64,000 nt of DNA from Chitinophagales bacterium (GTDB taxonomy: Bacteria; Bacteroidota; Bacteroidia; Chitinophagales; Saprospiraceae): NCBI GenBank assembly GCA_013298845.1, contig JAAFJN010000007.1, forward strand, positions 32,235-96,234, written 5' to 3'. The translations under genes were made by a program, and so were the position numbers. The notes beneath the pieces were generated by a model that was not told where the DNA came from, made no database searches, and worked only from the letters and a program-made list of their open reading frames with translations. This document shows, in pieces, positions 5,484-35,096 of the stretch. The stretch's first letter is position 1, and each line of letters starts with the position of its first letter.

Positions 5484-5495
5484 AAAACGAATATC

Positions 5496-10575: not shown

Positions 10576-10585
10576 AAGGGTTTTT

Positions 10586-10987: not shown

Positions 10988-11053
10988 AAACCAATTCAAC
11001 CCTTCTCCACCACTTCAACCCTTCTCCACCACTTCAACCCTTCTCAAGAAAGT

Positions 11054-19189: not shown

Positions 19190-20161
19190 TTACCGCCGCG
19201 TATCAAACAAGTACGACAAATGCAACTCGTGCGACGAACCAAACGGCAGTTCAAAAGTCGTAATATTGTAATCGTAGGCGTAACCAATTTTTAAAGCCCC
19301 GTTTTCGGCCAAAAAGCCGGGCAAATTAAAACCCGCTTCCAAATGAACCAGGCCATTGGGGTTAAAACCGCCGCCCACCCAAAAGGTCCGCATGGGCTGA
19401 AACCGTGCCAACAGGTGTACATTGGTGCGCGCTCCGGTGGCATCTTTTACCCAAATGGTGGTTTCCAAAAAACTTTCGGCGTTAAAAAAGTGGTACCAGC
19501 CGCCCGTAAAAAAAACGTGTGGTACCCGCGTCACCGGCACCTGATTGGTACCACTTTGCACCTGCACCCGCGCCGCCAACAACTGCGGCACCGACAACCC
19601 GGCGTAGATATTATCGCCTTTTAAACGCCCTTTTTTAAGCCTTTTGTAATAAAAAGCCCCCACGCCCACCTCCGGCCGGGTAGTGGCAATATCTTCGGTG
19701 GGAATAGAACCATCGGTGAGGTCTTCCCACAAAATGCGTTCGTGTTGCAAGCGGTACTGGGTGGCTCCGGCGTTAAAACCCAACGAAAAAGCCCCCAAAT
19801 AAGGGTCTTCGGCAAAAAGGCTGGCAATGCGCACGTGCGCCCCCGTGAGGCTGAGTGGCCCCGTTCGGTCCTGCAACAGCATCACCCCCGATGCCAGGTT
19901 AAAACCCCGGCCTCGGTTGTGGTTATCGTGGATAAAATCGACGGACGCGTGAATCGTGCGGGGCGTTTGCGGGTGCGCCGACCACTGCATCCGGTACGAG
20001 GTGTTAAGGGCGGTATTGTATTCGTACAAAAAATAATCGCTGTTCACCGAAGCCGGATTAATGTAACTGTACATTTGCCGAAACTGAACCTGATAAGGCA
20101 ATTGTTGGGCGGTTAAAGCCGTCGAAAACGTCAAAAAAAGCAGTATAGCCGTATATTTCAT
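19190..20161 (-). CDS. PorP/SprF family T9SS-associated membrane protein
   Basis: A 323-residue outer-membrane beta-barrel protein: signal peptide (TALTAQQLPYQ), then the family opening with FRQMYSYINPASVNSDYF, repeated aromatic strands, and a C-terminal LGYAYDYNIT/ELHLSYLF-like end. PorP/SprF proteins act with the type IX secretion system and help deliver proteins carrying type B sorting domains. It begins 24 bases after the caspase-like gene, so it is the last gene of the sigma-protease operon. A likely client is the type B adhesin encoded divergently at 27.0-28.9 kb (inference). Confidence 0.9.
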   Translation of the reverse strand: MKYTAILLFLTFSTALTAQQLPYQVQFRQMYSYINPASVNSDYFLYEYNTALNTSYRMQWSAHPQTPRTIHASVDFIHDNHNRGRGFNLASGVMLLQDRTGPLSLTGAHVRIASLFAEDPYLGAFSLGFNAGATQYRLQHERILWEDLTDGSIPTEDIATTRPEVGVGAFYYKRLKKGRLKGDNIYAGLSVPQLLAARVQVQSGTNQVPVTRVPHVFFTGGWYHFFNAESFLETTIWVKDATGARTNVHLLARFQPMRTFWVGGGFNPNGLVHLEAGFNLPGFLAENGALKIGYAYDYNITTFELPFGSSHELHLSYLFDTRR

Positions 20162-20185: not shown

Positions 20186-23176
20186 TTATTCCAAAATAAC
20201 CAAAGGGGTTTTGCCATCGGCTAAAAACAGGTTAGGACGTTGGCCGGTTTTGGTTTTGGGGCGTTTTTTGTCCACCAAAGCGGGCACTTCTTTTTGCATA
20301 AAATCAAACAACTCCCGAACGTCCAATTGGCGGTTTTGGTTAAGATCCAACGTGTTTTTAGCGTTGCCAAATTGTTGTAAACCTTTCATCAGCGCGTGGG
20401 TAAAAGCGCCGTTTTGCCAGGCATCGTCTTCGTAACTAAACTCGTCGGGTTGGCAGGACAGCAGCATATTGAGGCCATTTTTGCGCTCGGCAATGTGCGC
20501 AATACCCGAACCGGGCGCGTTGCCGCTGTGGCAGGCATCAATGATAAAAAGTTTGCGGCAAGGCACCGTTTGGATATAATTGATAATATCCTGCTCAAAA
20601 TCGAGGCTGGTTTCTTCCAAAAAAGGCGCGTCGTAATCGCTGGCGGCCAACCGAAAACTACCGTCGTAACTGCCCATACCGTGGCCCGAAACAAAAATAA
20701 CGAGCAGGTCTTTGGGCAAAATTTGCAAAGCGGCGTAGCGGTATTGTACGCGACGCAATGTTTTTAAAATGGCCGTTTTGGTCGTTTTTTCTTCCGAAAA
20801 CAGCGTATCCACGAATATTTTATCAAAAGCCGCGTTGGGCAAACCCGTCATGGCGGCGCAAAAATCGCGGGCATCTTTGGTGGTGTATTTGAGGTCGGCG
20901 GCCGGTACCCCGATGCAAATCAAATGCAGGTTGGGTTTGGCGGGCGAATACGCAATGTTAAGCGGCTCACTTTTGATGGGGCCATTGGGGCCTTGCACCA
21001 CGGCTTGCAGCACATTTTCGCCCTTTTGCAGGCGCACCGATTGCGAAAACGTTCGGCTGGCCTTATCGCCTTTTATTTGTACTTCGTCAAATTTGGCCCC
21101 GGTGCTGCACGGTACACCGTTGATTTCTAAACAAAATTGCTGTTTTTGAACGGGTTTGTTCGATACAATTTTAATTTGTACCGTAATGTCTTCCTGGGTC
21201 CAGACCAACTCCGAGCGTTCAAAATTATCAGGATTGGGATACACCCACACGGCCACGGTGTAATCGGCCTGAGCGGGGGTACTGTTGACGGGCAGGGTGG
21301 CGGCACGCACGTCGAAAGTGGCCGTTGAGGTGGCAAAATACTCCAGGGTTGCGTCGTCGGCGCGGGCCAGAAGTTGAAATACACTTTGCCCCACGCTGGT
21401 ATTTTCGGGGGTAACGGGGAGCCAAAAGGTGGCCTCGGCACCGGGCGCAATGGCTCCCAAAACGGCGTTGGCCGGTACTTTTACCCCCGGCGGCGCGGTA
21501 ATGGCCAAATTCACCTCCTGGGCGGTGGCATTTCCGGTGTTGCGGGCCACAACCCGCACTTGGGTCGTTTGGCCCAGCACCAATGCCGAATCGGGCGCGG
21601 CGATGGAGAGCGAAAGTTGTGGTTCCGCCACGCCATTGGTTCGGAGGCGCACCGTTTGTGGTGCCCCCACGGGTGTTGTCCCTACGTAATATTGCAGCCG
21701 TAATTCGTGGGTGCCCGCCGTAATATTTCCCGATAACAGCAACGGAATGGGGCGTTGGTATTCCTGGTTGGGCAACAAGGGCGGCAACATGATTGAGCGG
21801 CCCTGATTCACGGTAAAGGGCAGGCTCGTGGCGTTCAAAATTGTAGCGGATACCTGATACATGGGCACTTGCGTGGTGTTTTTTAATCCGGCGACGAAGT
21901 GCATACGTTGGGTATTGGCGGCGTTTTCCGGGGCCAGCAACTGAATATCGGTGGGCATGGAAATGCGGATATTTTCGAGGTTGGCCGCCGTTGTGAGGGC
22001 GGTAGACAGTTCAAACAGCCAGCCCTGGCGCATTTTGAGCACTTTTTTGGCCGTAGTACCCAGCGCAATCAAACGGCCGTCGGGGTGTTGGAGCAGGGCG
22101 CGTACTTCGTCGTCGAGTTTTGACCCGTAGTAAAAATCCTGGGGATTGGTGCCGGTGGCCGAAAGGAGCGAGAGCCAGGCCGAAATACGGCGGCTGCCCC
22201 GTTCAAAAGAAGCACTGCCGCCACCGGTCATCAGGCGGCCATCGGCCAATTGGAGGATACAGTGGCTTTGGTCAAATTCGCGGCCTCCCAGCGTGGTGTA
22301 CGACTGCAAAACGCCCGTTTGGTCCAACAGGGCAATGCACCCGTTTTCGCGCAAAGGCGTACCGGTTACGTTGCCGGTTATGGCCAATTGGGCGGTACCC
22401 AAGGTCGTAATTCCGGTCCCGCACTCCGCTTGCGCGGTCGGAAACGTTTTTTCCATGGTCATTTTTCCCGCCGGATTTATCCCCCCGATCCACAGTTTAT
22501 TTTGGTCATATTCGGTTACCTGTCCCGTCATGAACAACGTACCATCGGGGCCGTTGGTAGCCGCATAAATGGCCGTTGGAAGCAAATGGTATTGAAATTT
22601 TTTGTCAAAAACCACCTCCAACGCGGGCGAAAGCAGCACGACCCACGCTTGGGCGCCGCTGTTTCCGGCCAACCACACGGAGCCATCGGGCAGGGCGGCA
22701 GCGGCGGTAAATGCGTCATCTTGCGCGGTTCCGAGCAATATTTCGCGTTCGATATGGCCATTTTCGTTTAGAATTAAGGCCCAACCATCGCTTTTGCCAA
22801 AATAATTGGCGCGCACTTTCGATTTTCCACCGGGTTTTTCCGAATAACCGGCCAGCAGGTAGCGGCCATCGGGCAGGGTGATGATTTGGTGGGCGCCGTC
22901 GTCGCCTTTTCGGCCAATGTGGCGCTCGGTCAAAAGGCCCAACCGGCTGTCGAACAAGGCCAAACTAATATCTTGCCCCCCGTTATCGCCTTTAGCGGCG
23001 TTACCCACGCTGGCAATATCGCCGCGCCAATTGGTGCAGGCCGATACCAGTTCGTCTTGCCCGGCACTGCCAATATACCGCTGTTGGAGGGGTTTGGCGG
23101 GCAAAACGAGCGACTGCCCGGCTACAACAGTAACCAGACAGGAGCAATATAGAACGGAAAAAAATTTATTGAGCAT
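20186..23176 (-). CDS. Secreted caspase-like (C14) protease with CARDB and propeller-like N-terminus
   Basis: A 996-residue protein with a signal peptide (SCLVTVVAGQ). Residues about 30-390 carry repeats of the delta-60/propeller kind (PDGRYLLAGYS, PDGSVWLAGNS, ADGRLMTGGGS). About 500-620 resembles a CARDB domain, followed by an Ig-like segment. The C-terminal 260 residues are a caspase-like peptidase with catalytic His832 (VSGHGMGS) and Cys882 (IDACHSGN), both present. The start MLNKFFSV lies inside the end of the preceding papain-like gene (11-base overlap), which implies translational coupling. Activity on the cell surface or in the periplasm is inferred from the signal peptide. Confidence 0.88.
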   Translation of the reverse strand: MLNKFFSVLYCSCLVTVVAGQSLVLPAKPLQQRYIGSAGQDELVSACTNWRGDIASVGNAAKGDNGGQDISLALFDSRLGLLTERHIGRKGDDGAHQIITLPDGRYLLAGYSEKPGGKSKVRANYFGKSDGWALILNENGHIEREILLGTAQDDAFTAAAALPDGSVWLAGNSGAQAWVVLLSPALEVVFDKKFQYHLLPTAIYAATNGPDGTLFMTGQVTEYDQNKLWIGGINPAGKMTMEKTFPTAQAECGTGITTLGTAQLAITGNVTGTPLRENGCIALLDQTGVLQSYTTLGGREFDQSHCILQLADGRLMTGGGSASFERGSRRISAWLSLLSATGTNPQDFYYGSKLDDEVRALLQHPDGRLIALGTTAKKVLKMRQGWLFELSTALTTAANLENIRISMPTDIQLLAPENAANTQRMHFVAGLKNTTQVPMYQVSATILNATSLPFTVNQGRSIMLPPLLPNQEYQRPIPLLLSGNITAGTHELRLQYYVGTTPVGAPQTVRLRTNGVAEPQLSLSIAAPDSALVLGQTTQVRVVARNTGNATAQEVNLAITAPPGVKVPANAVLGAIAPGAEATFWLPVTPENTSVGQSVFQLLARADDATLEYFATSTATFDVRAATLPVNSTPAQADYTVAVWVYPNPDNFERSELVWTQEDITVQIKIVSNKPVQKQQFCLEINGVPCSTGAKFDEVQIKGDKASRTFSQSVRLQKGENVLQAVVQGPNGPIKSEPLNIAYSPAKPNLHLICIGVPAADLKYTTKDARDFCAAMTGLPNAAFDKIFVDTLFSEEKTTKTAILKTLRRVQYRYAALQILPKDLLVIFVSGHGMGSYDGSFRLAASDYDAPFLEETSLDFEQDIINYIQTVPCRKLFIIDACHSGNAPGSGIAHIAERKNGLNMLLSCQPDEFSYEDDAWQNGAFTHALMKGLQQFGNAKNTLDLNQNRQLDVRELFDFMQKEVPALVDKKRPKTKTGQRPNLFLADGKTPLVILE

Positions 23177-24689
23177 AGACTTTGAGCGTGATAGCAACGG
23201 CCAGTTGGTGTTGAACGGGGTCGGCTAATGCTTTAAACGACATTTTTTGCGGCGAAAACTGCGCGTTGGGAGCCTTGATTAATACATCCCCAAACGTGGC
23301 TTCTACTTGTTCGGCAAAGGTGCCGTTGTGTTGGTTGAGTTGGGCCAAACGTTGGTCGAAGCCCGGAATAGCCGCGTGGCTGTACAAAATGCAGAGGTGT
23401 TCATAACCCGGCATCGGGATTTGCAGCAGCACATCTTCGGAGGGGATAACAATTTCTACCGTTTTTTCGAGCATAAACCCCGCCGAAGCCATGTTTTCTT
23501 GGCGGCGTGGAAAATGCAGATTGATTTCTTTTTGGGCATTTTGGCTAAAAACGTAGATGTAGCGGCCTTTGGGCACTTCGCGGGCGACCAGTTGAAACAC
23601 ATCGCCCACGTTAAATACCGGGCGTTCGGTGGTGTAATTTCCCGGCCATTCCGGCACGACTTTGGTGCTGATTTCTTCAAAAAACATCACTTCTTCGCCG
23701 TAGGCATTGGTCACGCTGCCGGAGGGTTGCCGAAACGCAAATGCCCCTTCCAGCGCGTATTGGGCCGAAACCGGTGCTTCGCCCGAAGTGGCGGCGGTCA
23801 CTGGCGGCGCGGTGGCAGTTGGGGCAAAAGTGGTGGAGGTATTGGGTTGCGGCACAATGACGTAGGCGTACCGGCAAAGGCGTTCAAAATCGGCGAAATT
23901 CACCCGAATAAAGCCATTTTGCCCCCACGATGGCCCAAAACTATTGAACAATTCGACGTATTTTTCCACGCTGTTATACCCCACCAACACCAACGCGTGG
24001 TAGCCGTTTACCGTTTCCGAATCGGCCGGATCCCATTGGGTGGCACCGGGCAAAAGGTCAAAAAAACTTTTGGTAATACCCATGCCCACCACCAATGGCG
24101 TTTGGGTGGCCAACACTTTGCACACCTTCCCAATTTTATTTTTAGGTTCTTCGTCGAGGGTAAACACCGCCGCGTAATCTTGCGCTTTAAATTGCTGCGC
24201 CTCCAAAAAAGTTTGGTCATTGGGCAAAGAATGGCAATCGTCGGGGTTAAACGCGAACGACGCTTCCAAACAATCGCCTTTTTCTTTTAATACCCGCAGC
24301 GCATCTTCGAGGTAAGCCCCTTCCGAGCAATCGGTGTGGTTGGCGCGGACCTGGTTGTAAATAAACGCCGCCGAGTTGGCGTATTGGGTAATCTGGGCTT
24401 TATCGGTGGTTTGGGTCTGAATAGCGCGCTGAATCGTGGTAGCGCCATAACCCACGGCCCAGCCCACGCAGGTACCCGTCCGGCGTTGGTCGCCCGCCAC
24501 CGGGCAGTACTTTTTCAGGCTTACTTTCACCGGTATTTCGTTGTATTTCACCCCGCTATAAGCCGGTAAAACGGGTATTTGGCGGTATTTTTCGTCGGAA
24601 ACCAGTAAACCGGCGGATTGGGCCGTTAACCAATAAGCGGGCAAAAAAGTCGCCCAAATAAGGGCAAAAAGCAGTTTATTGTTGCGCAT
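23166..24689 (-). CDS. Secreted papain-like (C1A) cysteine protease with DUF4384 domain
   Basis: A 507-residue protein: signal peptide (MRNNKLLFALIWATF...), then a papain fold with oxyanion Gln in GDQRRTGTCVGW, nucleophile Cys74, His231 (GYHALVLVGY) and Asn249 (NSFGPSWG). After a Thr/Ala/Pro-rich linker, about residues 330-470 resemble DUF4384 (GDVFQLVAREVPKGRYIYVF). The chosen start overlaps the TPR gene by 14 bases. With the caspase-like neighbour it gives two cysteine proteases of different clans in one operon, suggesting processing of one by the other or of shared surface targets (inference). Confidence 0.88.
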   Translation of the reverse strand: MRNNKLLFALIWATFLPAYWLTAQSAGLLVSDEKYRQIPVLPAYSGVKYNEIPVKVSLKKYCPVAGDQRRTGTCVGWAVGYGATTIQRAIQTQTTDKAQITQYANSAAFIYNQVRANHTDCSEGAYLEDALRVLKEKGDCLEASFAFNPDDCHSLPNDQTFLEAQQFKAQDYAAVFTLDEEPKNKIGKVCKVLATQTPLVVGMGITKSFFDLLPGATQWDPADSETVNGYHALVLVGYNSVEKYVELFNSFGPSWGQNGFIRVNFADFERLCRYAYVIVPQPNTSTTFAPTATAPPVTAATSGEAPVSAQYALEGAFAFRQPSGSVTNAYGEEVMFFEEISTKVVPEWPGNYTTERPVFNVGDVFQLVAREVPKGRYIYVFSQNAQKEINLHFPRRQENMASAGFMLEKTVEIVIPSEDVLLQIPMPGYEHLCILYSHAAIPGFDQRLAQLNQHNGTFAEQVEATFGDVLIKAPNAQFSPQKMSFKALADPVQHQLAVAITLKVYAQ

Positions 24690-25452
24690 TTTGAATATTT
24701 TGAAGCAATTGGGCGGCTTGTGGGCCAAAAATACCATCGGGCGGAATAGCCGATAACACTTCGCGGGCAGCATCGGGGCGGTTGGTGGCCAAATAAGCCA
24801 ACCCCAAGTACCAACGCGCTGCCTCCTGCACGGGTGGTTCGGGCGATTGCTGGGCATCGGCTAAGGGCTGAATGGCCTGTGCGGCCTGACCGTTCAGGAG
24901 GCGGGCCACGCCAAGGTAGGTTAATGCCGCAAAATCCGGGTTGTTTTGGGTATAATCCGCGAGCAACGGAATGGCTTGGGCATAATTGGCGGCATCGTAA
25001 GCCTGCATGGCGGTTTTTAAGGCACCGGAGGTGTTTACAAACAACACATTTTCCAAAGGTTGCAGCGCGTTTTGGGCCAATTCCTGCGTCGTCGTTGTTG
25101 TAACCGTGGCCGTTGCCGCCGCCGGGGCAGATGTCCAGAAATACACGCCGGTACCAACGCTCAGCGCCAAAATAGCGGCCATCAACCAGGTTTTCCAGCC
25201 AGTTCCCCCCGATGCGGGCGGATTAGCGGGCGGGAATCCTTCTTCCTCGATGACTTGGGAAAGGACCGCGTTGGCAGCCAACATTTCTTTGTTGCGCAGG
25301 GCAAGGGCCAGGTTTTGGCTAAACCGCAGTTCGTCGGCGAGTTCGGGTTGTTGCTGCGCCTGGTTGCGCAATTCCTGTACTTGCGCGGGATCTAATTTTT
25401 TTTGAACCAGATCGTGTATTTTTTCCTGAATGGGATAATTTGTATTTTCCAT
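24676..25452 (-). CDS. Membrane-anchored TPR protein, candidate anti-sigma partner
   Basis: A 258-residue protein. The N-terminal 75 residues are cytosolic and helical (IQEKIHDLVQKKLDPAQVQE). One transmembrane helix lies near 86-106 (TWLMAAILALSVGTGVYFW). An Ala/Thr linker and three to four TPR-like repeats follow outside. Its position 11 bases after the ECF sigma gene and its topology are those of Bacteroidota anti-sigma-like proteins, although no zinc-binding HC2 motif is visible. The start MENTNYPIQ is preferred over an upstream Met that would overlap the sigma gene. Confidence 0.8.
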   Translation of the reverse strand: MENTNYPIQEKIHDLVQKKLDPAQVQELRNQAQQQPELADELRFSQNLALALRNKEMLAANAVLSQVIEEEGFPPANPPASGGTGWKTWLMAAILALSVGTGVYFWTSAPAAATATVTTTTTQELAQNALQPLENVLFVNTSGALKTAMQAYDAANYAQAIPLLADYTQNNPDFAALTYLGVARLLNGQAAQAIQPLADAQQSPEPPVQEAARWYLGLAYLATNRPDAAREVLSAIPPDGIFGPQAAQLLQNIQNAQQ

Positions 25453-25463
25453 TGTTAGTTGTA

Positions 25464-26027
25464 TTAACTGTTGGTCAAAAAGTTTTCCACTAATTTTTTG
25501 AGTTTTTTCCGGCAATCAAAAATGCGTTTTCGGAGGTTATTATAATCGTAGTTCATTTGTCGGGCAATGTCCAGCAGGGGCACTTCTTCGAGGTGAAACA
25601 GCCGGATAATATCGTCGCAGGGAGCATCGAGGTGTTGTAGGCAATGGTGAATGGCTTCAATTTGGCGGTCTTTGGCAATGGCCGCCGCCACCGAAATATC
25701 GTGGTCGTCGGTGATGGACACCCGCGACACGTCCAACTCATCGGTACGGCGCACTTTTCGCCGCCGCAGTTCGTCGCGCCAGGTATTGGAGGTCAGCATG
25801 TAAATAAAACGATCCAATTTGCCCTCTTCCTGGTAGCGATTATCGCGAAAAACCTGCCAAAGTTCCAGGATAACCGTTTGTACCATTTCGCGGGCATCGT
25901 TGTCGCTGCCGCTGTTTTTTTTCACATATCCGGTAATCATGCCGCCATAAGTGCGATATAAGTACCGGAATACCTCGGGATTATTGTCGAGTAAACCGTC
26001 TTTAATTTGTGTTGTTGTATAAACCAT
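25464..26027 (-). CDS. ECF-type RNA polymerase sigma factor
   Basis: A 187-residue sigma-70 family factor. Region 2 spans about 20-90 (DNDAREMVQTVILELWQVF ... LDRFIYMLTSNTWRDELRR) and region 4 is about 130-182 with a helix-turn-helix around LLDIARQMNYDYNNLRKRIF. First gene of the operon that continues with the TPR protein, two proteases and PorP/SprF. I set the start at ATG 26027 because upstream sequence contains the palindromic repeat and a candidate promoter of the same type as those of the neighbouring genes, which suggests autoregulation. Confidence 0.93.
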   Translation of the reverse strand: MVYTTTQIKDGLLDNNPEVFRYLYRTYGGMITGYVKKNSGSDNDAREMVQTVILELWQVFRDNRYQEEGKLDRFIYMLTSNTWRDELRRRKVRRTDELDVSRVSITDDHDISVAAAIAKDRQIEAIHHCLQHLDAPCDDIIRLFHLEEVPLLDIARQMNYDYNNLRKRIFDCRKKLKKLVENFLTNS

Positions 26028-26141: not shown

Positions 26142-26168
26142 ATATTGCGTAGTGCCGGAATTGTTACT
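26142..26168 (-). promoter_or_regulatory. ECF-type promoter candidate for the sigma-protease operon
   Basis: On the minus strand AGTAACA (26168-26162) is followed after 12 bases by CGCAATAT (26149-26142). This is close to the GGTAACA-N12-TGCGATAT site on the plus strand 35 bases away. It lies about 115 bases upstream of the sigma gene start and would make the operon self-activating. Confidence 0.5.
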
Positions 26169-26202
26169 GAAAAAAAAGAAAAAGTTTTTTTACCGATGCT
26201 CC

Positions 26203-26227
26203 GGTAACATTTTTTAAACGTTGCGAT
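26203..26227 (+). promoter_or_regulatory. ECF-type promoter candidate P1 (GGTAACA-N12-TGCGAT)
   Basis: GGTAACA at 26203-26209, 12 bases, then TGCGATAT at 26222-26229. It is 30 bases before the start of the Fn3/CARDB-like gene and repeats upstream of three other plus-strand genes. Confidence 0.65.
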
Positions 26228-26256
26228 ATGGGCGGGTACATTAACTTGAATTGACT

Positions 26257-27048
26257 ATGATACTACGAGTAATATTAATTTGGATCTGCTGCACTCCGGC
26301 ACTTTGGGCACAAGAAACACCCCTTTCAATGGGCGCGGGTAACGAAGCCGAAGCCCTCGCGCCGGGCAATGTACACGCGAGCGACGGCGTGTACGACAAA
26401 TTTGTACTGGTGCGCTGGGATGCAGGCGAGCAAAGCGGGCAGTTCAGGGTATTTCGCGCATTGTCCGTGCGCGGTGCTTCGATGCAGGAACTTACCGCCA
26501 AACCCCAAAAAAGTACCTGGTTTTGCGATTATAGTGCCGAAAAAGGCCGCGATTATTATTACGCCATTTCGGAAACCAATGCGGCGGGCGAAGCGCAACT
26601 TACGCCTTTTGACAAAGGTTTTATCCGAAAAGACAGCAAATTGGTCATGGATGAATCTGTTTCTTCGGTGAACCTCGATAAAGTGGCCGCCGGAAAACAA
26701 GTGTATGTCCTCATCGAAGAAATTCAAACCGATACCACTGTGTTTGAGGCCGGGGCCACCGTGGCTTACCGCCTGCAATTGAGCAATTTGTTTGACGAAA
26801 CCACGCCGCGCACCGATATTAAAATATTCCTCTCCGCCGATAATACCTGGGATTTTGAAGACCAATTGCTGGTATCTAAATCGTACAGTGGTTTTCCAGG
26901 CAGCACGCGCCCCTTGTTGAATGAGTTTTTGGAATTAAAAAAGCCGCTTGTCCCCGGTAATTATTTCCTGATTGCCGTTGCGGCACCCAAAGGGCAAATT
27001 TTAGAGGCAAAAACGGCCGTTACACCTATAACAATTATTGGAAAATGA
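26257..27048 (+). CDS. Secreted Fn3/CARDB-like protein
   Basis: A 263-residue protein with a signal peptide (MILRVILIWICCTPALWAQ). Residues about 40-125 resemble a fibronectin type III fold (DKFVLVRWDAGEQSGQFRVF ... YYYAISETNAAG). About 145-255 resemble a CARDB domain (FEAGATVAYRLQLSNLFDET ... PLVPGNYFLIAVA). It overlaps the next gene by four bases (ATGA), so they form one translationally coupled unit. No enzymatic motif. It may assist the adhesin encoded downstream. Confidence 0.75.
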   Translation: MILRVILIWICCTPALWAQETPLSMGAGNEAEALAPGNVHASDGVYDKFVLVRWDAGEQSGQFRVFRALSVRGASMQELTAKPQKSTWFCDYSAEKGRDYYYAISETNAAGEAQLTPFDKGFIRKDSKLVMDESVSSVNLDKVAAGKQVYVLIEEIQTDTTVFEAGATVAYRLQLSNLFDETTPRTDIKIFLSADNTWDFEDQLLVSKSYSGFPGSTRPLLNEFLELKKPLVPGNYFLIAVAAPKGQILEAKTAVTPITIIGK

Positions 27049-28934
27049 GGTATTTTATTGGGCTATTGGCCTTGTTCGTGGCGTTTGCAGTGGCGGCGCA
27101 AGACCCCTGCGACCCGCCCTTGGCGGCTTCTTTGTCAGTATTCCCCACCGAAGTATGCTCCGACGGGGTTGTAACGGTCACGTTTTCGTTACCACCCGAC
27201 GACGGCGACGCATTCGACGTAGTGTTTAGTGTTAACGGCGTTACGGCGCAATTGTCGGGAATTTTGGATGGGCACACGGAGCAAATAACCATTACGGGTA
27301 CTACCGTTATCCGGCTCGAACAAGTCACCAACAACGACGACGACGACGATACGTGTTTTACCAATTTTAACACCCAAATCACCGTCACGGTATCGGGGAT
27401 TCAGGTGGATTTTTCCCCGCAAAACCCTACTTGTGACCAAAATAACGGCAGTATTACCGTTACCGCCAACGGTGGTACCGGGCCGTATCAATACAGCCTC
27501 GACGGAGGGGCGGCGCAAAACAGCCCCGTTTTTTCGGGACTGGGAGCGGGTAATTATCTCCTTTCCGTCACCGATGTTGCGGGTTGCGCGGGTGAAATAT
27601 TCGCCACTTTAACCACTGGTGATGCCCCGTTTTTATCGGTATTGAACCAAACCGCTCCGGGTTGCGGCCAAAATACGGGCACCATCACGCTCACGGCCAG
27701 CGGCGGCACTGCCCCGTACCAATACAGCCTGAACGGCGGCGCATTCCAGAACAGCGCGAGTTTTGGCGGCTTGGGCGCGGGTGTTTTCACATTTACGGTG
27801 CGCGACGCGGCCAATTGCACGGCGCAAATAACGGCGGAGTTAACCAGTCCGGGCGCCCCGTTTTTATCGGTATTGAACCAAACCGCCCCGGGTTGCGGCC
27901 AAAATACGGGTGCCATCACGCTCACGGCCAGCGGCGGCACTGCTCCGTACCAATACAGCCTGAACGGCGGCGCATTCCAGAACAGCGCGAGTTTTGGCGG
28001 CTTGGGCGCGGGCACGTACGTGTGTGAGGTGCGCGACGCGACGAATTGCACCACCAGTATCACCGCGGTACTCACCGATAACAGCATTGGTTTGCCACCG
28101 GCCAGTATTAGCGCAACCGATACGAGAGGCTGTTCCGATATGGTATTTGGTTTAACGGCCAATGCCCCCGCCGGAACCACGGGCACGTGGATGTGTTCCG
28201 GTTGTACCATTGCGCAACCCTCTCAACCTCAATTATCGCTGAGCGGACTTCCGCCGGGAAATACGGTGGTGAGTTGGGTGCTTTCAACGCCCAATTGCCC
28301 CAATTACAGCAGCGCATCGGTGACGATTACCATTTTTGATCCACCGGTGGCCAATACCGATGGGGTATTTCAGGTAACGGTCCCCAATCCGGTGGAAGTG
28401 CCCGTTTTGATCAACGACGCAGCCAGCGCGACCGTTTTTACCGAAATTATGGCACCGCCCCAAAAAGGAACGGTGACGTTTGGGCAAAACCAGGAGTTAT
28501 TGTACCAGCCTTTTGCCAATGCGCAGGGGGCCGATACCTTGGTTTATCGCCTTTGTTACGATGAATGTCCGCAGGTTTGTGATTCGGCGATGGTGTTGTT
28601 TCAAATTATTTCCGAAAACGACCCTTGTTTTATCACGGGCGACACCACGAATATATTAACCAATGGCCTCACGCCCAACAACGATGACATCAATGACAAA
28701 TTGGTGTTTCGGATCGTGGACGTGAAAGAGTGTGAAGTGAATTACCTACTTAGCGATTTGATTATTTACAACCGCTGGGGCGACGTGGTGTACGAATCTA
28801 AGCCCTATAACAACGACTGGGAAGGCACCAACCGCGATGGTACGCCGTTGCCGCCGGGGGTGTATTATTTTGTGTTGCGGGTGTATTTGGAGCAACCGTA
28901 TTCGCAGTTTGGGAATGTGATTATTATTCGGTAA
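27045..28934 (+). CDS. SprB-repeat adhesin with T9SS type B (gliding-associated) sorting domain
   Basis: A 629-residue secreted protein with a signal peptide (FVAFAVAAQDPCD). Three SprB-type repeats occupy about 125-345, each with NTGTITLTASGGTAPYQYS-like sequence. Two are nearly identical at DNA level (231-base period). The C-terminal 85 residues form the gliding-motility-associated C-terminal domain: LTPNNDDINDKL, IYNRWGDVVYES, W.G.NRDG.PLPPGVYYFVLR. Type B tails direct export by T9SS together with a PorP/SprF partner, and one is encoded at the end of the divergent operon. Likely a surface adhesin. Confidence 0.9.
   Translation: MRYFIGLLALFVAFAVAAQDPCDPPLAASLSVFPTEVCSDGVVTVTFSLPPDDGDAFDVVFSVNGVTAQLSGILDGHTEQITITGTTVIRLEQVTNNDDDDDTCFTNFNTQITVTVSGIQVDFSPQNPTCDQNNGSITVTANGGTGPYQYSLDGGAAQNSPVFSGLGAGNYLLSVTDVAGCAGEIFATLTTGDAPFLSVLNQTAPGCGQNTGTITLTASGGTAPYQYSLNGGAFQNSASFGGLGAGVFTFTVRDAANCTAQITAELTSPGAPFLSVLNQTAPGCGQNTGAITLTASGGTAPYQYSLNGGAFQNSASFGGLGAGTYVCEVRDATNCTTSITAVLTDNSIGLPPASISATDTRGCSDMVFGLTANAPAGTTGTWMCSGCTIAQPSQPQLSLSGLPPGNTVVSWVLSTPNCPNYSSASVTITIFDPPVANTDGVFQVTVPNPVEVPVLINDAASATVFTEIMAPPQKGTVTFGQNQELLYQPFANAQGADTLVYRLCYDECPQVCDSAMVLFQIISENDPCFITGDTTNILTNGLTPNNDDINDKLVFRIVDVKECEVNYLLSDLIIYNRWGDVVYESKPYNNDWEGTNRDGTPLPPGVYYFVLRVYLEQPYSQFGNVIIIR
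27624..28017 (+). repeat. In-frame tandem SprB repeats of 231 bases
   Basis: The segment starting GCCCCGTTTTTATCGG at 27624 recurs at 27855 with only a few changes over about 160 bases. Recent tandem duplication or gene conversion within the adhesin gene. Confidence 0.85.
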
Positions 28935-28965
28935 GGAGTATTTTTTTCAAAAAAAAGCCAGCACC

Positions 28966-28992
28966 GGTAACATTTAACCCGCCGTGCGATGT
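28966..28992 (+). promoter_or_regulatory. ECF-type promoter candidate P2
   Basis: GGTAACA at 28966-28972, a 12-base spacer, then TGCGATGT at 28985-28992, 21 bases before ATG 29013. Same motif as P1, P3 and P4. Confidence 0.65.
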
Positions 28993-29012
28993 GTTGCAAA
29001 CACGCACGATTC

Positions 29013-29846
29013 ATGAAATACCGCATACTTGGGCTTTTATTGGCACTATTCATCGGTGCCGCACCGCTTTTGGGGCAACATTTGGGCACCAGCCTTAATT
29101 TTGGCCTGCGCAAAACGTTTAATTTTTCCGAAAAAAACCTGTGGGTGCTTCGGCAGCAGGTGCAATTGAACCCCGAAATAGAACGCTACAACGACCGTTA
29201 TGGCGATTATTTTAACGAAGATGATTTTTGGGTAATTCCAACGCGTTATCAGAACCCGGACAACGATGCCGAACCCGACGACGATGATAATAACGGCTCC
29301 TCCTCCGGGGGCGGAAATACCCCGCTGTTCCCGGAACTCAACGACGCACCTACCCGCGTTTTGGTGGAGTGGCGTTCCACCACGTCCACGGTATTTACCC
29401 ATAAAATACGGCCCTGGCTGCGGGTAAACAGCGCTTACGCCTTTTTTTACAACGGCAACGACCGCCGACACACTTTCCGTACCGAATTGGATTACCGCGT
29501 GGTGAAGCAGTTTTATCCCAAAAGCAAATGGGATATTTCGGTGCGCAGCCTGGTGCAATGCAGTGGCCAACGCGACGATGGCGCACTCGAATGGGCAACG
29601 TTTTGGGTGCCGCGTTTTGATGTGGAATGGAAATACCGCCCCCGGCACACGCTGGCCATTAGCCAAACGGTCAACGGCGTATTAGAAGATCAACGCGTGG
29701 CCTTTGACCGTTGGCGCTTGGCGTGTAACCTGCAATTTGACCTGAGTAAAAAACACCGCTACACTTTTGGATACCAGTACCAACGACGGCTCGATCAGCC
29801 CGTTCGTTCGCACACGCTCCAGTTTAGTTACGAAATAAGATTATAG
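29013..29846 (+). CDS. DUF2490-like outer-membrane protein
   Basis: A 277-residue protein with a signal peptide (MKYRILGLLLALFIGAAPLLGQ), an acidic Asp/Gly/Ser-rich loop near residues 88-100, and alternating amphipathic strands ending RSHTLQFSYEIRL, as in outer-membrane barrels. The pattern (FRTELDYRVVKQFYPKSKWD; RHTLAISQTVNG) resembles DUF2490 proteins. The ATG at 29013 is chosen over one 24 bases upstream because of the signal peptide. It has its own copy of the shared promoter-like motif. Confidence 0.65.
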   Translation: MKYRILGLLLALFIGAAPLLGQHLGTSLNFGLRKTFNFSEKNLWVLRQQVQLNPEIERYNDRYGDYFNEDDFWVIPTRYQNPDNDAEPDDDDNNGSSSGGGNTPLFPELNDAPTRVLVEWRSTTSTVFTHKIRPWLRVNSAYAFFYNGNDRRHTFRTELDYRVVKQFYPKSKWDISVRSLVQCSGQRDDGALEWATFWVPRFDVEWKYRPRHTLAISQTVNGVLEDQRVAFDRWRLACNLQFDLSKKHRYTFGYQYQRRLDQPVRSHTLQFSYEIRL

Positions 29847-29943
29847 GAATAGCAGTACAGTTTTCTATTGACCGATGTTACGCTTTTATTTGCCCTCCGT
29901 AATCGAGCACCTCGTCCGCTGTTTGGCGGATGGGGTGTGTTGT

Positions 29944-30678
29944 TTATTGGTGTTTCTTTTTTAGTTCTTTGGCCAATTTAATCGAATGTTTCAACGAGTT
30001 TTTATTGTTCCAATCGCTGTGCGCAATAATGATAAATTTGGGTTTTGGGTACTTTTTTTGCACTTTTTTGAGGGTTGCGGCGTATTCCAGCACGTTGGCA
30101 TCGCCCAAATAACCGAGGGTTTCGTCGTCCGCGCCTTTAATTAAACACCCGCCGTAGAGGATTTTTTCTTTTCCAAACCAAAGTACAATATTATCGGCGG
30201 TATGTCCTTCGCCGGGGTAAAAGGTTTCAAAACGGTATTGCCCGATCTGGAACACCGTATCTTTTGTTGTCAAAAATTCCGCGCGTTTTTTGCCGTTTTT
30301 TTGACTCAATTCATCGGTGTATGCTGTCGTGTAGGTTTTTATGCCTTGTTGACGGTAATATTCCAGCCCGGCCGTTTTGTCGCTGTGCCAGTGGGTAGCA
30401 ATGGCAAATACCACCTTTTGTTGGTGTCTTTTTTGAATGCTGTCGAGCAAGGGTTGAAACTGCGTGGTATCCCAAGGGGTATCAAACAGCGCAACACCCT
30501 GGTTGGTCACGAGGTACATGCCATTGGCGGGCACCTGGTAGCCTTCGTACAGGTTGTAAGTGGTGTAAATGTAAAAATCGCCCGTGAGGTGGGTGATGTT
30601 CAACGGTGGTTTTTGGGTTTGGCCAAAAATACTGTTCAGGGTGCATAAAAATGCAAAGATCAGGGTGGCAAAGCGCAT
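29944..30678 (-). CDS. Subclass B1 metallo-beta-lactamase
   Basis: A 244-residue secreted enzyme with a signal peptide (FAFLCTLNSIFGQ). All zinc ligands of subclass B1 are visible: ATHWHSDKTAGL (His, His, Asp), GEGHTADNIVLWF (His), GGCLIKG (the Cys ligand typical of B1) and IIAHSDWNN (final His). It should hydrolyse beta-lactams including carbapenems, as B1 enzymes of environmental Bacteroidota do; the actual spectrum is not readable from sequence. It stands alone, convergent with the DUF2490-like gene, with no mobile element near it. A minus-strand TAATTTTG element lies in its upstream region. Confidence 0.88.
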   Translation of the reverse strand: MRFATLIFAFLCTLNSIFGQTQKPPLNITHLTGDFYIYTTYNLYEGYQVPANGMYLVTNQGVALFDTPWDTTQFQPLLDSIQKRHQQKVVFAIATHWHSDKTAGLEYYRQQGIKTYTTAYTDELSQKNGKKRAEFLTTKDTVFQIGQYRFETFYPGEGHTADNIVLWFGKEKILYGGCLIKGADDETLGYLGDANVLEYAATLKKVQKKYPKPKFIIIAHSDWNNKNSLKHSIKLAKELKKKHQ

Positions 30679-30842
30679 AGTGGTCTTGTTAAAAAGTGGG
30701 TGTTATTTGAATAGTTTAGTCACAAAATTAGCGCAGCGGCCGCGCCATTCGGCCGGTTTTTCTGCCAAAAAGATATTTTACGCCTACCAAAGCGCGAATT
30801 TTTCCCAAAAGTTAATTTTGAGTAAATTTTTTTCCCGCCCGT

Positions 30843-30869
30843 GGTAACATTGTCGAGCCACTCCGATAT
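30843..30869 (+). promoter_or_regulatory. ECF-type promoter candidate P4
   Basis: GGTAACA at 30843-30849, a 12-base spacer, then TCCGATAT at 30862-30869 (one change from TGCGATRT), 41 bases before the glycerate kinase start. Confidence 0.55.
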
Positions 30870-30910
30870 ACCGTGGAATTTGAAGTTTTACAGTATAAAA
30901 AACACACACC

Positions 30911-32095
30911 ATGAATATTTTGATTGCTCCGTCTGGTTTTAAAGAAAGTTTAATGGCTGATGCCGTGGCTAATTGTATCGAAAATGGCGTTCGCCGCATT
31001 ATTGGCAACGCGAATATCCATAAAATTCCGGTGGTGGATGGCGGCGAAGGTTTTGCCAAAATTTTGATCCATGCGACCGGCGGTACTTTACACGAAGTAC
31101 AAACCACCGGCCCAACGGGTGAAAAAATACCAAGCCACTTTGGTTTTTTGGGTGGAGAAACCAAAAAAACGGCGATTCTCGAAATGGCCGCCACGGCGGG
31201 TTTATCGTTGGTTCCCCGCGATGTACGCAACCCCATGCTCACGACGACCTACGGGGTGGGTGAACTTATCCGCCACGCCCTCGACGCCGGTGCCGAACGG
31301 ATCCTCATCGGTTGCGGCGACAGCGGCACCAACGACGGCGGGGCCGGTATGGTGCAGGCGTTGGGTGCGCGTTTGCTCGACCGCAATGGCCACGATATTC
31401 GTTTGGGCGCTATCGGGTTGTTGGACCTGCACACCATTGATATTACCCACCTCGACCCCCGGTTGAAACAAGTACAAATTGACGTGGCCTGCAATCCGCA
31501 CGTACAGTTGTGCGGCGAACAAGGGGTTGCGCGGATATTTGGCCCCCAAAAAGGCGCTACGCCCGAACAAGTGAACCTGTTAGATGCTGCTTTGACGCAT
31601 TGGGGAAGCCTGATTGAAACAAGCCTTGGGCAACGGGTAATCGGGGTGCCGGGCAGTGGGGCTTCGGGTGGATTAGGTTCCGGGTTAATGGCTTTTTTGA
31701 ACGCCAAACTGCACCCGCGTTACGATATTATCATGAAATACCAGCAGGTAGAGCAAAAATTGCCGGGTATGGACCTGGTCATCAGTGCCGAAGGTGCCAT
31801 TGATTTTCAAACGCCCAAGGGCAAAGTTCCCGCCGAAGTAGCCCGCATGGCCAAATTATACGGTATTCCGGTGGTGGTGCTGGCCGGTACCATCGGCAAA
31901 AATGCCCAGGACAACTACGATTACGGCATTGACGCATTTACCACCATTTTGCAAACGCCCTGCACCCTCGAACACGCCATTACCAATTGTGAATCGCTGG
32001 TAGAATCGGCTACCGAACGCCTTTTGCGGGCCATTTTGGTGGGTATGCACATGTCGCAACGAGCCCACGATGTCGCATTGGGCCAGGCGGCTTAA
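30911..32095 (+). CDS. Glycerate kinase (GarK/GlxK type)
   Basis: A 394-residue cytosolic kinase that phosphorylates glycerate to 2-phosphoglycerate. Family signatures: NILIAPSGFKESLMADAVA at the start, PVVDGGEGFAK, ATAGLSLVPRDVRNPM, IGCGDSGTNDGGAGM, and GSGASGGLGSGLMAF in the second half. Length is normal. The following gene encodes a DASS-type carrier, so the pair probably serves uptake and use of glycerate or a related acid (inference). Confidence 0.92.
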   Translation: MNILIAPSGFKESLMADAVANCIENGVRRIIGNANIHKIPVVDGGEGFAKILIHATGGTLHEVQTTGPTGEKIPSHFGFLGGETKKTAILEMAATAGLSLVPRDVRNPMLTTTYGVGELIRHALDAGAERILIGCGDSGTNDGGAGMVQALGARLLDRNGHDIRLGAIGLLDLHTIDITHLDPRLKQVQIDVACNPHVQLCGEQGVARIFGPQKGATPEQVNLLDAALTHWGSLIETSLGQRVIGVPGSGASGGLGSGLMAFLNAKLHPRYDIIMKYQQVEQKLPGMDLVISAEGAIDFQTPKGKVPAEVARMAKLYGIPVVVLAGTIGKNAQDNYDYGIDAFTTILQTPCTLEHAITNCESLVESATERLLRAILVGMHMSQRAHDVALGQAA

Positions 32096-32153
32096 TTACC
32101 TTTTTTGAACCGGAATTGCGGGTTAAATTTTTGCGCTATTTTTTATTTAAAAG

Positions 32154-33527
32154 ATGAATAACCTAAAAAAATATTCCCAAGGGCTGCCATTATTGGTGGC
32201 TTTTGGGCTTTCTGCCGCTATATTTTGGGCTACGCCCGGATTATCGCCCGCTGGGCAGCGGACATTGGTGGTGTTTGTGTGGGCCATTGTCGGGTGGTCA
32301 TTCACTGCGCTGGATGCCACGGTGGTGGCCATTGGTGCCGCCCTGTTATTGTGGGGTTTGGGCTTAACGCAGGGGCAATTGGTGTTGTCGGGTTTGGGCG
32401 ATTCGTTTATTGGTTTTGTTATTGCCGGGTTTATGTTGGGTGGCGCGTACAAATTGACCGGTTTATCGGGCCAAATGGCGCGTTGGTTTGGCCAACGGGC
32501 GCACAGCGTCCGCGATTTGTTTTATTGGCTAACGTTGGCGTTGGTCGTCTTGTCGTTTGTTATTCCGGCTACATCGGCGCGGGCAGCCCTGATGTTGCCC
32601 ATTTACACTGCGGTCTCGGCCCGTTTGCCCACCGCCGGGGCGCGCAAGGGATTGGCCGTTTTGTTTCCGGTCATTATTGTATTGTCGTGCGTTACGTCGT
32701 ACCTCGGGGCGGGTGCCAATTTACTGACGGCCAGTTATGTCACCAGTGTCACGGGCGAAAAGATCAGTTACCTGCAATGGTTGTTGCTGGGTGGCCCCGT
32801 TGGTATCGTGAGTTGTGGGGTATCGGCCTGGGTTATTGTGCATTTGTTTTTGACCAAAGCCGAACGCAATATGCCTTTTGAGGTCATTGAAACCGACAAT
32901 ACGCCCGTCAATGGGACCAATAACCGGCGGTTGGGCATAGTCACCGGGGGGTTATTGGCCCTCTGGACGACCGAACCCCTCCACCATTTAGATGCCGGGA
33001 TGGTAGCCCTGGCGGGTGCCTTGGTGCTTTGTGTCCCTCAAACGGGCGTTATGACCCTCAAACAAGCCCTTAAAGAAGTAGAATGGTCGTTGGTGTTGTT
33101 TATGGCAGCCACTGTAGAACTCAGCCGCGCGTTGGTGGACAACGGTGTGGTGGCGTATTGTATGGCGGCATTTAGCCGGGGCATCAACGGCTGGTCCGGC
33201 GAGTTGGTATTGGTGGTTGTATTGGCGGCGGCCCTCATATCGCATATTTTGATCCATTCCCGCACGGCGCGGGCGGCGGTGTTGTTGCCGGTATTGGTTC
33301 CGTTGGCCATGTCGGCGGGGCATTCGGGGTTATTGGTCGCGTTTTTCGCCAATGCCGCGATGGGTTATTGCATTACCCTGCCGATATGCGCCAAACCCGT
33401 GGCGTTGTTCAGCACTGCCGGTGACAATGCCTACACCAGCCGCGATTTGTTGCGCCTTAGCGCGTGGTTACTGCCGTTTCATTTATTGTTGTTTGTGGCG
33501 GGGTATTGGGTGTATCGGTTATTTTAA
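32154..33527 (+). CDS. DASS/SLC13-type anion symporter
   Basis: A 457-residue membrane protein with about 11-12 hydrophobic segments. Typical DASS features are an SFIPATSARAALMLPI-like element (VIPATSARAALMLPIY) in the first half and HSRTARAAVLLPVLVPLA in the second, the two re-entrant repeat motifs. It lies 58 bases after the glycerate kinase gene, same strand, and is probably co-transcribed. Substrate unknown; glycerate or another small organic acid is favoured by context. Confidence 0.85.
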   Translation: MNNLKKYSQGLPLLVAFGLSAAIFWATPGLSPAGQRTLVVFVWAIVGWSFTALDATVVAIGAALLLWGLGLTQGQLVLSGLGDSFIGFVIAGFMLGGAYKLTGLSGQMARWFGQRAHSVRDLFYWLTLALVVLSFVIPATSARAALMLPIYTAVSARLPTAGARKGLAVLFPVIIVLSCVTSYLGAGANLLTASYVTSVTGEKISYLQWLLLGGPVGIVSCGVSAWVIVHLFLTKAERNMPFEVIETDNTPVNGTNNRRLGIVTGGLLALWTTEPLHHLDAGMVALAGALVLCVPQTGVMTLKQALKEVEWSLVLFMAATVELSRALVDNGVVAYCMAAFSRGINGWSGELVLVVVLAAALISHILIHSRTARAAVLLPVLVPLAMSAGHSGLLVAFFANAAMGYCITLPICAKPVALFSTAGDNAYTSRDLLRLSAWLLPFHLLLFVAGYWVYRLF

Positions 33528-33563
33528 GGGAAAGGAGTTTTTAAAAAAAAGTAAAAAAACGCC

Positions 33564-33591
33564 GGTAACAATTTTTCCTACCCTGCGATGT
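33564..33591 (+). promoter_or_regulatory. ECF-type promoter candidate P3
   Basis: GGTAACA at 33564-33570, a 13-base spacer, then TGCGATGT at 33584-33591, 33 bases before ATG 33624. The spacer is one base longer than in the other copies. Confidence 0.6.
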
Positions 33592-33623
33592 ACTGCCAAA
33601 TATTTAACCAAACACATTTCATT

Positions 33624-35096
33624 ATGAACAACACCAGTTTTATCTCAACGATTACACGTATTTGCGTTTTGAGCCTGCTTTTACTCGGTTTTATCTCGGT
33701 ATCGGCCCAAAATTGCTCTCAACCTTCCAACCTTAATTCTATTGTATTATCCGGTGGTTCAGTGGCCCTCTCGTGGGCACCTCCCGGTGGTGCGGCCAGT
33801 TTTGTGGTGCAGTACCGCGTGGGCAACAGCGGTCCGTGGTTGGCCGGAGGCACCGTGACAACGCCGAACCAAGTCATTTCGGGCTTGTTGCCAGAGACCG
33901 TTTACACCTGGCGGGTACGGGCCAATTGCTCCACTTTTTCCAGCGTGGCGACCTTTAATTCCGGCGGCAACACGGGCGGCAACACGGCGTGTTCTTCGCC
34001 ATCCAACCTCGATGCGTTTGTTACCTCCGAAACAAGTGCCGACCTCAGTTGGGCACCCATTGATGGGGCATTTTATTACACCGTGCAGTATCGCCTGAAC
34101 AATGTGGGGGGCTGGACCAACGCCGGTTCGGTTTCCGGTACCAGTATTTCGGTGGTCAATTTATTGCCCAACTCTGAATATGGCTGGCGCGTAAAAGCCA
34201 GTTGTTCGGTGTATTCCAGTGTGGCCTTGTTCAACACCGGTATCCTCGGTGGCGGTGGCAATACTTCTTGCTCGCAGCCCTCTAACCTGGAGGCGGTGGC
34301 CTTGTCCAATACATCGGTGAATCTCGTTTGGTCGGCCATTCAGGAAGCCCAAAACTACACCGTTGAATACCGCAAAGGGTTGTCGGGGGCATGGTTAAAT
34401 GCCGGAACCGTTACGGCTACGAACTTGGTATTAACCGGCTTATTACCCGCTACCGAGTACTCTTGGCGCGTAAAAGCCAGTTGCTCCGATTTCTCCAGCC
34501 AGGCCGTATTTACCACGGGTGGCAGCGGTGGTTCCGGCGGTGGCGGCGGCAGTACTTCTTGTTCGGCCCCTTCCAACACCAATACGTTGGTGGTAACGCC
34601 CACCACGGCTACCATCGAATGGGAAGCGCAAGCCGGCGCCCTCAATTACACGGTGCAATACCGCCGAATTAATGTGTCAACTTACATTACCGTGGGCACA
34701 TTTACGGCCGCAACGGCATCCATTGCGGGTCTTTTGCCCAATACCGAATACGTTTGGCGCGTAAAAGCCAATTGTTCACCTTACGGTAGCGATGTCCAAT
34801 TTTCAACCCCGGCGCAGGCTGGTAGTTTTGCCGCTGCGCGTTCGGTGGAAGAAGCAACCCTGATTTCCATTTTCCCCAATCCGGTATCGGGTGGATGGGC
34901 GCAAATTGTCGGGTACCAGCCGGATACGCAATTGGAATTGTACAGTATCACCGGACAAATGGTGCGCAACCAGGTTTTATTGGCCGATAATGCCCAAATT
35001 GATCTTGTTGGTTTAAAAGCGGGCACTTATTTTGCCCGTTTCCAACAACCCAACGTCGTGGCGACAACGCTTCGTTTGATGGTTGTTCAGGACTAA
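33624..35096 (+). CDS. Secreted four-Fn3-domain protein with T9SS type A tail
   Basis: A 490-residue protein with a signal peptide (LLLGFISVSAQ) and four fibronectin type III repeats of about 85-95 residues, each opening with C(S)xPSNL and closing with YxWRVKAxCSxFSS. The repeats are joined by Gly/Ser linkers (one with GGSGGSGGGGGS). The C-terminal 80 residues are a T9SS type A sorting domain (SIFPNPVSGG ... LKAGTYFARF). Two Cys per repeat suggest disulfide-locked domains. Surface-attached binding or structural protein; no catalytic domain seen. Confidence 0.85.
   Translation: MNNTSFISTITRICVLSLLLLGFISVSAQNCSQPSNLNSIVLSGGSVALSWAPPGGAASFVVQYRVGNSGPWLAGGTVTTPNQVISGLLPETVYTWRVRANCSTFSSVATFNSGGNTGGNTACSSPSNLDAFVTSETSADLSWAPIDGAFYYTVQYRLNNVGGWTNAGSVSGTSISVVNLLPNSEYGWRVKASCSVYSSVALFNTGILGGGGNTSCSQPSNLEAVALSNTSVNLVWSAIQEAQNYTVEYRKGLSGAWLNAGTVTATNLVLTGLLPATEYSWRVKASCSDFSSQAVFTTGGSGGSGGGGGSTSCSAPSNTNTLVVTPTTATIEWEAQAGALNYTVQYRRINVSTYITVGTFTAATASIAGLLPNTEYVWRVKANCSPYGSDVQFSTPAQAGSFAAARSVEEATLISIFPNPVSGGWAQIVGYQPDTQLELYSITGQMVRNQVLLADNAQIDLVGLKAGTYFARFQQPNVVATTLRLMVVQD

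Follow-up and report, generated by a model that had tools for sequence, protein, structure and literature searches.

A predicted promoter code for an extracytoplasmic function sigma factor and its type IX-related neighbours in a Saprospiraceae genome

Described ECF systems and the present locus

According to PMC8103513, extracytoplasmic function (ECF) sigma factors typically consist of two domains, regulate their own synthesis, are co-transcribed with an anti-sigma factor and use promoters with AAC and CGT boxes (the boxes later no longer being regarded as defining). Here, we analysed a promoter-like motif found around the ECF sigma factor gene at 25464..26027 (minus strand) of a 64,000-nucleotide stretch, hereafter the window, from the Chitinophagales bacterium assembly GCA_013298845.1 (Saprospiraceae; contig JAAFJN010000007.1, positions 32,235 to 96,234). 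The motif is very probably the autoregulated promoter of this factor, driving a small predicted regulon formed by its own operon and neighbouring genes.

The locus resembles RpoE/RseA and SigW/RsiW (PMC8103513) in its two-domain sigma factor, the AAC of its -35 box, its predicted autoregulation and an adjoining gene for a membrane protein; in contrast to them, its -10 box reads C[GA]AT, its candidate anti-sigma factor carries tetratricopeptide repeats (TPRs) and matches no anti-sigma model of Pfam or NCBIfam, and its operon holds two cysteine-protease-type proteins and a PorP/SprF protein. Within the Bacteroidota, ECF control of type IX secretion genes has likewise been described for SigP of Porphyromonas gingivalis (PMC4800418) and for the SM6 motif of Flavobacterium psychrophilum (PMC9723704), although the targets of those systems include the secretion machine, whereas the targets predicted here are cargo, PorP/SprF and metabolic genes. 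Both the motif suggested for SigP, C(T)AAA(G/C/T)A(T)A(C)T(A/G)A, and the CGT box of SM6 differ from the GTAACA-N12-TGC[GA]ATAT found here. The Flavobacterium remFG-sprCDBF genes similarly place an SprB-type adhesin and SprF under alternative promoter types, but with sigma-54 (SM4) and SM5 boxes (PMC9723704) instead of an ECF-type box whose predicted sigma factor is encoded nearby. Finally, CASP-sigma/Csx30/Csx29 of type III-E CRISPR systems (PMC10028731) also brings together an ECF sigma factor, an inhibitor and a caspase-type protease, with target motifs in the locus, and may serve as an analogue for an inhibitor that is controlled by a protease. Unlike that system, no CRISPR gene is present among the identified genes of our operon, the protease-type proteins have apparent signal peptides, and the inhibitor would be a membrane protein, with a cleavage that is hypothetical. 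In a literature search judged by titles and the opening of abstracts, with most subscription papers outside reach, no paper was recognised as describing the motif or the operon.

Motif copies in the genome and promoter anatomy

The initial annotation had reported four plus-strand copies of GGTAACA-N12/13-TGCGATRT, and three of them match it strictly: 26203..26229, ahead of the Fn3 protein/SprB-repeat adhesin pair (predicted start 26236), and 28966..28992, ahead of the DUF2490 gene (predicted start 28999), both with a spacer of 12 bases, and 33564..33591, ahead of the gene for the four-Fn3 type IX cargo, with 13 bases between the boxes and a predicted start at 33598. The fourth, at 30843..30869 ahead of the glycerate kinase/DASS transporter genes (predicted start 30876), proved to be GGTAACA-N12-TCCGATAT, with one mismatch to the second box as printed. 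The spacers of 12 or 13 bases and the proposed distance of 20-45 bases to the genes agree with our measurements, as the gaps from motif end to start codon are 27, 20, 41 and 32 bases, in order of position. The minus-strand variant announced ahead of the sigma operon, AGTAACA-N12-CGCAATAT, is present at 26142..26168 (predicted start 26135). It scores 12/15, a value also reached by the best of 60 shuffled versions of the region (shuffles in the region scoring preserve base composition only), and it is thus poor evidence taken alone. Each of the five copies is oriented towards its following gene, with predicted leaders of 14-108 bases, and 100 dinucleotide shuffles gave an expectation of 0 strict matches for the window.

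A genome-wide scan had been named beforehand as the test able to overturn the prediction, which withstood it: throughout the genome (6.37 Mb in 89 contigs), the strict motif appears four times, always 20-35 bases ahead of a gene, and the reversed control not once. Three of these matches are those of the window, and the fourth (G000:C9:208, G000 being this genome) ends 35 bases upstream of a TPR-protein gene outside it. The idea of a local regulon hence stands as regards the sites around the sigma operon but not as a purely local arrangement, with one more site on another contig. Allowing up to two mismatches brings the motif close to background (28 hits against 20 for the reversed motif with spacer 12, and 20 against 21 with spacer 13), and these counts gave no sign of a broad regulon in the genome. 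Overlap with open frames was of no use to sort these two-mismatch hits from true sites, because four of the five true sites also overlap some open frame.

Collecting sites by pattern in 16 sigma-bearing genomes (see below) gave 40 sites, 39 of which were aligned, the G006 site of a TPR/outer membrane protein (OMP) gene being left out for its incomplete context. The aligned sites are preceded, at a distance of 14-20 bases, by an A/T tract (mean 6.3/7) and show [GA]GTAACA, a preference for A/T after GTAAC, a spacer of 12 bases (once 13) and TGC[GA]ATAT, with GTAAC in all 39, as demanded by the collecting pattern. The seven middle columns of the spacer hold at most 0.08 bit, and the boxes are conserved. 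A purine stands at a single column, 7 bases past the second box, in 39/39 sites (P 4e-11 versus 0.54 elsewhere), and probably marks the transcription start. Taking it as +1, CRAT would span positions -12 to -9 and GTAAC positions -32 to -28, a geometry that looks ECF-like. The proposal of an ECF-type promoter is sustained by this geometry, by the fixed purine and by the upstream box, as GTAAC, containing the AAC of the ECF -35 hallmark, is found in all five window sites, but not by the second box, which is C[GA]AT and not the textbook CGT. Among seven sites outside the aligned set, six have the purine and six have at least 5/7 A/T; the only failure on both counts comes from G030, a genome in which the sigma gene was not found. 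By comparison, 11 matches of another origin (10 from genomes in which the sigma gene was not found, the other within an open frame of the own genome) showed the purine in 7/11 and a mean tract of 3.8.

Conservation of the motif and identity of its probable reader

A pattern devised when most sites were already known was applied to 16 sigma-bearing genomes. It found the motif before 40 of the 45 genes leading a transcription unit and before none of 70 operon-internal genes (TPR membrane protein, C1, C14, PorP/SprF, SprB-repeat gene and DASS), and the reversed pattern occurred in 1 of the 115 windows. By gene, the leading sites distribute as sigma 14/16, Fn3 11/13, DUF2490 7/7, glycerate kinase 4/5, four-Fn3 2/2 and TPR/OMP 2/2, the sigma figure being the one that bears on the predicted positive autoregulation. 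The DUF2490 count includes the own genome; a further motif-bearing copy was found in G023, where the site lies in an end common to two contigs, which suggests that DUF2490 there comes after the C1 gene. All four close copies of the glycerate kinase that were found (the own one and three of 70-81% identity) carry the motif, and that of the four-Fn3 gene is also present upstream of its orthologue in G009.

In the intergenic region between the sigma and Fn3 genes, the own genome and four congeners show two outward-pointing motifs in otherwise unalignable DNA, with the sigma-side site of the congeners scoring 13-14/15 with spacer 12 in all four. Other genera with the same operon (sigma 50-55% identical) carry boxes such as TACGATAT and TGCAATAT. 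When ten genomes were scored with the boxes as printed above, leading genes reached 11-15/15 (9 for a glycerate-kinase homologue of 33% identity) and internal genes 9-11; alignments below 95 bits in this scoring, or below 60 bits in the later ones, were dropped, including the Fn3 homologue of L194. A scan of named genomes yielded 14 sigma loci, all from metagenome-assembled genomes titled Saprospiraceae, Chitinophagales or Bacteroidetes bacterium, eight of which duplicate genomes already studied. With the printed boxes, the best match before the sigma gene in the six new loci has spacer 12 in 6/6, with scores of 11-12 against shuffle means of 9.2-10.0, and the best match before the Fn3 gene has it in 3/3, with scores of 12-14.

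Co-occurrence was analysed in 60 genomes including the own one, calling the sigma gene at E<=1e-20. The sigma gene was found in five of them and the strict motif also in five, with both in four (Fisher 5e-5, kinship ignored); the Fn3 gene is confined to the same five genomes as the sigma gene, and the two exceptions are G035, a sigma carrier with slightly altered boxes, and G030, which has a motif site but in which the sigma gene was not found. A relaxed motif (GTAACW-N12-TGCGATRT) gave 19 hits, 17 of them different, in the five carriers, versus six hits in five of the 55 non-carriers and four hits of the control in the 60 genomes. In G009 (5.8 Mb), all six relaxed hits are inside 18.4 kb that include the sigma gene. 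In the scan of 396 genomes from the order, multiple strict matches occur in G000 and G009 alone (in a listing without G006 and G023, each of which has several according to the 60-genome scan). A single match occurs in five other genomes, and these look like background because the reversed control matches in eight. The strict motif was not found in five carriers of a close sigma from other genera (G141, G200, G218, G264 and G315), which have variants of the second box instead; a distant sixth sigma hit (G367, 29%) was left unused.

The assignment of the motif to the factor at 25464-26027, proposed in the initial annotation, gains support from this conservation at genes, from the co-occurrence with the sigma gene, from the ECF-like geometry and from the result for other sigma genes of the genome, none of which (0/30) has the motif above background upstream (scores 9-11), in a scan that covered 30 of the 38 Sigma70_r2 matches, those with loci, with windows set from domain positions, the local sigma being among the eight left out. 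In the factor itself, the region-4 stretch YDY[ND]NLRKRIFDCRKKLK is nearly invariant in 10 orthologues, as GTAAC is across sites, and region 2, at its end, differs between genera, as does the -10 box, a parallel that fits, without proving, the local sigma as the reader. A paralogous module is encoded at L093 (G000:C12:113001-133000), 9760-11076 (plus strand) and 4206-5555 (minus strand), with identities of 28% for sigma, 27% for the TPR membrane protein and 29% for the C1-like protein, and no motif above background was found upstream of its sigma gene.

Given the 38 Sigma70_r2 matches of the genome and a second ECF factor located only 5-13 kb from the sites, the motif could instead be the promoter of another ECF factor, such as that at 38643-39230, with the local sigma as merely one target. 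We consider this improbable, as the motif is not found before any of the 30 other sigma genes scanned, 38643-39230 included, and follows the local sigma locus across genomes (a distribution compared for the local sigma only); another sigma factor as the reader was rejected on the 0/30 upstream regions. Lower still stands the likelihood that the motif is the operator of a DNA-binding activator, transcription starting elsewhere, for which the hybrid kinase/AraC regulator at 14893-19182, with helix-turn-helix (HTH) domains and encoded beside the sigma operon, would be one candidate, since the sites are promoter-like, with unequal boxes pointing to genes, a fixed spacer and a purine at constant distance (the ECF-type pattern being the only one sought). 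That the sites are chance matches or copies from local DNA duplication is hardly credible: all the window sites lie within 7.5 kb, but shuffles predict no strict match there, the mid-spacer columns carry no more than 0.08 bit in the 39 aligned sites, in contrast to the conserved boxes, and sites reappear at the same genes in other genera. A chance origin was rejected on the zero counts in shuffles and in the reversed control, the co-occurrence in 60 genomes and the 396-genome scan.

Several observations weigh against reading the motif as the promoter of the local sigma factor. Its support is drawn from sequence comparison, and the spacing, the pattern and the purine column were fixed after most sites had been seen. 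Because the genome has 38 Sigma70_r2 matches, another factor may share the specificity, and the other-sigma scan reached only 30 of them. The -10 box, mostly C[GA]AT, departs from the CGT hallmark. The sigma-side site of the own genome is the weakest one (12/15), only two of the six new sigma sites outscore all 40 shuffles of their own region, and with the printed boxes a score of 12 is reached by one internal gene too, C1 of L187. The pattern misses the sigma gene and the Fn3 gene (fnA) of G141, the sigma gene of L193, fnA of L188 and the 33% glycerate-kinase homologue in G035. Finally, in G030 (89% complete), where neither the sigma nor the Fn3 gene was found, a single site precedes a CotH-type gene. 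That site, L068 (G030:C93) 1966-1992 (minus strand), lacks the purine and the A/T tract and is perhaps decaying.

With the local sigma factor as the very probable reader, the comparative data link one promoter code to one sigma among 38 sigma-domain matches, together with a predicted start base, which makes the assignment directly testable and the two a candidate orthogonal promoter/sigma pair.

Operon, predicted regulon and proposed circuit

The sigma operon encodes the sigma factor, a TPR membrane protein, papain-type and caspase-type proteins and a PorP/SprF protein, all on the minus strand. The factor (187 aa) has its sigma regions at residues 23-91 and 124-176, joined by a linker of about 32, that is, the two-domain architecture with linker below 50 of ECF factors. 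Its Sigma70_r2 match is above the Pfam cut-off and its r4_2 match just below it (23.3 versus 25.7 bits); TIGR02937 is matched with 72.6 bits (cut-off 42.9), and no narrower NCBIfam model is exceeded among the best 25 of 44 rows.

The next gene in 16/16 loci (24676..25452) encodes the membrane protein with C-terminal TPRs, a candidate anti-sigma factor. The top VIA row for a four-helix model of its N-terminus is the anti-sigma factor RsiW, a weak match, and Foldseek gave no significant fold for this N-terminus; in Pfam and NCBIfam no anti-sigma model matched the protein. In PMC7406223, class I anti-sigma domains are reported beside only 6% of Bacteroidetes ECF factors, and given this figure a TPR-bearing anti-sigma factor encoded with cysteine-protease-type proteins would be noteworthy if confirmed.

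The papain-type cysteine protease (C1; 23166..24689, PF00112) has an apparent signal peptide, and its residues Q69, C75, H232 and N250 (numbering from the 24692 translation) are kept in at least 90% of 16 sequences. The caspase-type (C14) protein with a NEW3-type domain (20186..23197, start codon uncertain; PF00656, PF10633) keeps H839 and C889 in at least 90% of up to 11 sequences and shows weak delta-60 repeats (TIGR02608, under cut-off). The last gene (19190..20161) encodes a type IX secretion membrane protein of the PorP/SprF family (TIGR03519, 133 bits against a cut-off of 90.55; PF11751). Adjoining this end of the operon is the gene for the hybrid two-component regulator (14893-19182, plus strand; Reg_prop, HisKA, receiver and AraC-type HTH).

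The targets named in the initial annotation, on the plus strand of the window, were retained in the predicted regulon, and the motif is conserved at them in relatives. Besides the sigma operon itself, this regulon would take in the pair of Fn3 and SprB-repeat genes, DUF2490, the glycerate kinase and DASS genes, the gene for the four-Fn3 cargo and the distant TPR/OMP gene. The pair consists of an exported two-domain beta-sandwich protein (Fn3-like and Ig/CARDB-like; 26257..27048) and an SprB-repeat adhesin (27045..28934; SprB, CHU_C) with a type B sorting domain, TIGR04131, which is barely over its cut-off (35.9 versus 35 bits). DUF2490 (29013..29846) is a weak match under cut-off (PF10677, E 1.5e-4), and the plus-strand genes beyond it encode the glycerate kinase (30911..32095, PF02595), the DASS-type anion symporter (32154..33527, PF00939) and the four-Fn3 protein (33624..35096; fn3 x4, Por_Secre_tail), whose type A sorting domain matches TIGR04183 with 41.8 bits (cut-off 23). 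The distant TPR protein, judged by eye, has a signal peptide and a C-terminal outer-membrane barrel; in G006, a 41% homologue of its gene is apparently beside an SprB-repeat gene (two contig ends with a common site).

Glycerate kinase was rejected as a genus-wide member, since only G000 of the 60 genomes has it at E<=1e-90. Outside this set, a close glycerate kinase beside the sigma gene and with the motif is present in G200, G315 and L187, noticed only because their sigma loci had been fetched. Further motif-bearing genes in relatives encode CotH-type cargo (G006, G030), a 153-aa protein (G009, G023) and a 363-aa protein (G009), both without Pfam match, and an aminotransferase (G023). Among 17 CotH-type loci scored, the motif was found only in G006, with G030 in addition. 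Copies without it include those of the sigma-negative G027 and G034 (70% identity) but also that of the sigma carrier G009 (60%), so that this comparison helps only partly.

Mechanistically, region 4 of the sigma factor would read GTAAC and region 2 CRAT, and the divergent pair at 26142-26229 would provide autoregulation. The TPR membrane protein may retain the factor until an envelope signal comes, and the cysteine proteases and PorP/SprF could process, secrete or sense surface cargo. A bolder and rather unlikely extension is an envelope circuit complete in itself: on engagement of the PorP/SprF-adhesin apparatus, the exported C14 and C1 proteases would cut the TPR anti-sigma factor. In this way a single ECF factor, using a promoter code of its own, would build and monitor one type IX surface structure, coupled to glycerate metabolism. 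The circuit of the main reading, with the local sigma factor as the reader of the motif, would give a handle on the timing of type IX adhesin production in uncultured Saprospiraceae.

Next after the second ECF sigma factor of the window (38643-39230, minus strand) comes a protein of 521 aa that has no Pfam match (37073-38638, minus strand). In G023, L072 (G023:C185:12001-21000) has a strict motif at 5096-5122 (plus strand) just ahead of the class I/II aminotransferase gene, which may be a second metabolic target. The product of 29944-30678 (minus strand), a gene located between those for DUF2490 and glycerate kinase, has by eye the look of a metallo-beta-lactamase-fold hydrolase, and a tandem pair of near-identical SprB-repeat units can be seen, also by eye, at 27626-28060 of the adhesin gene.

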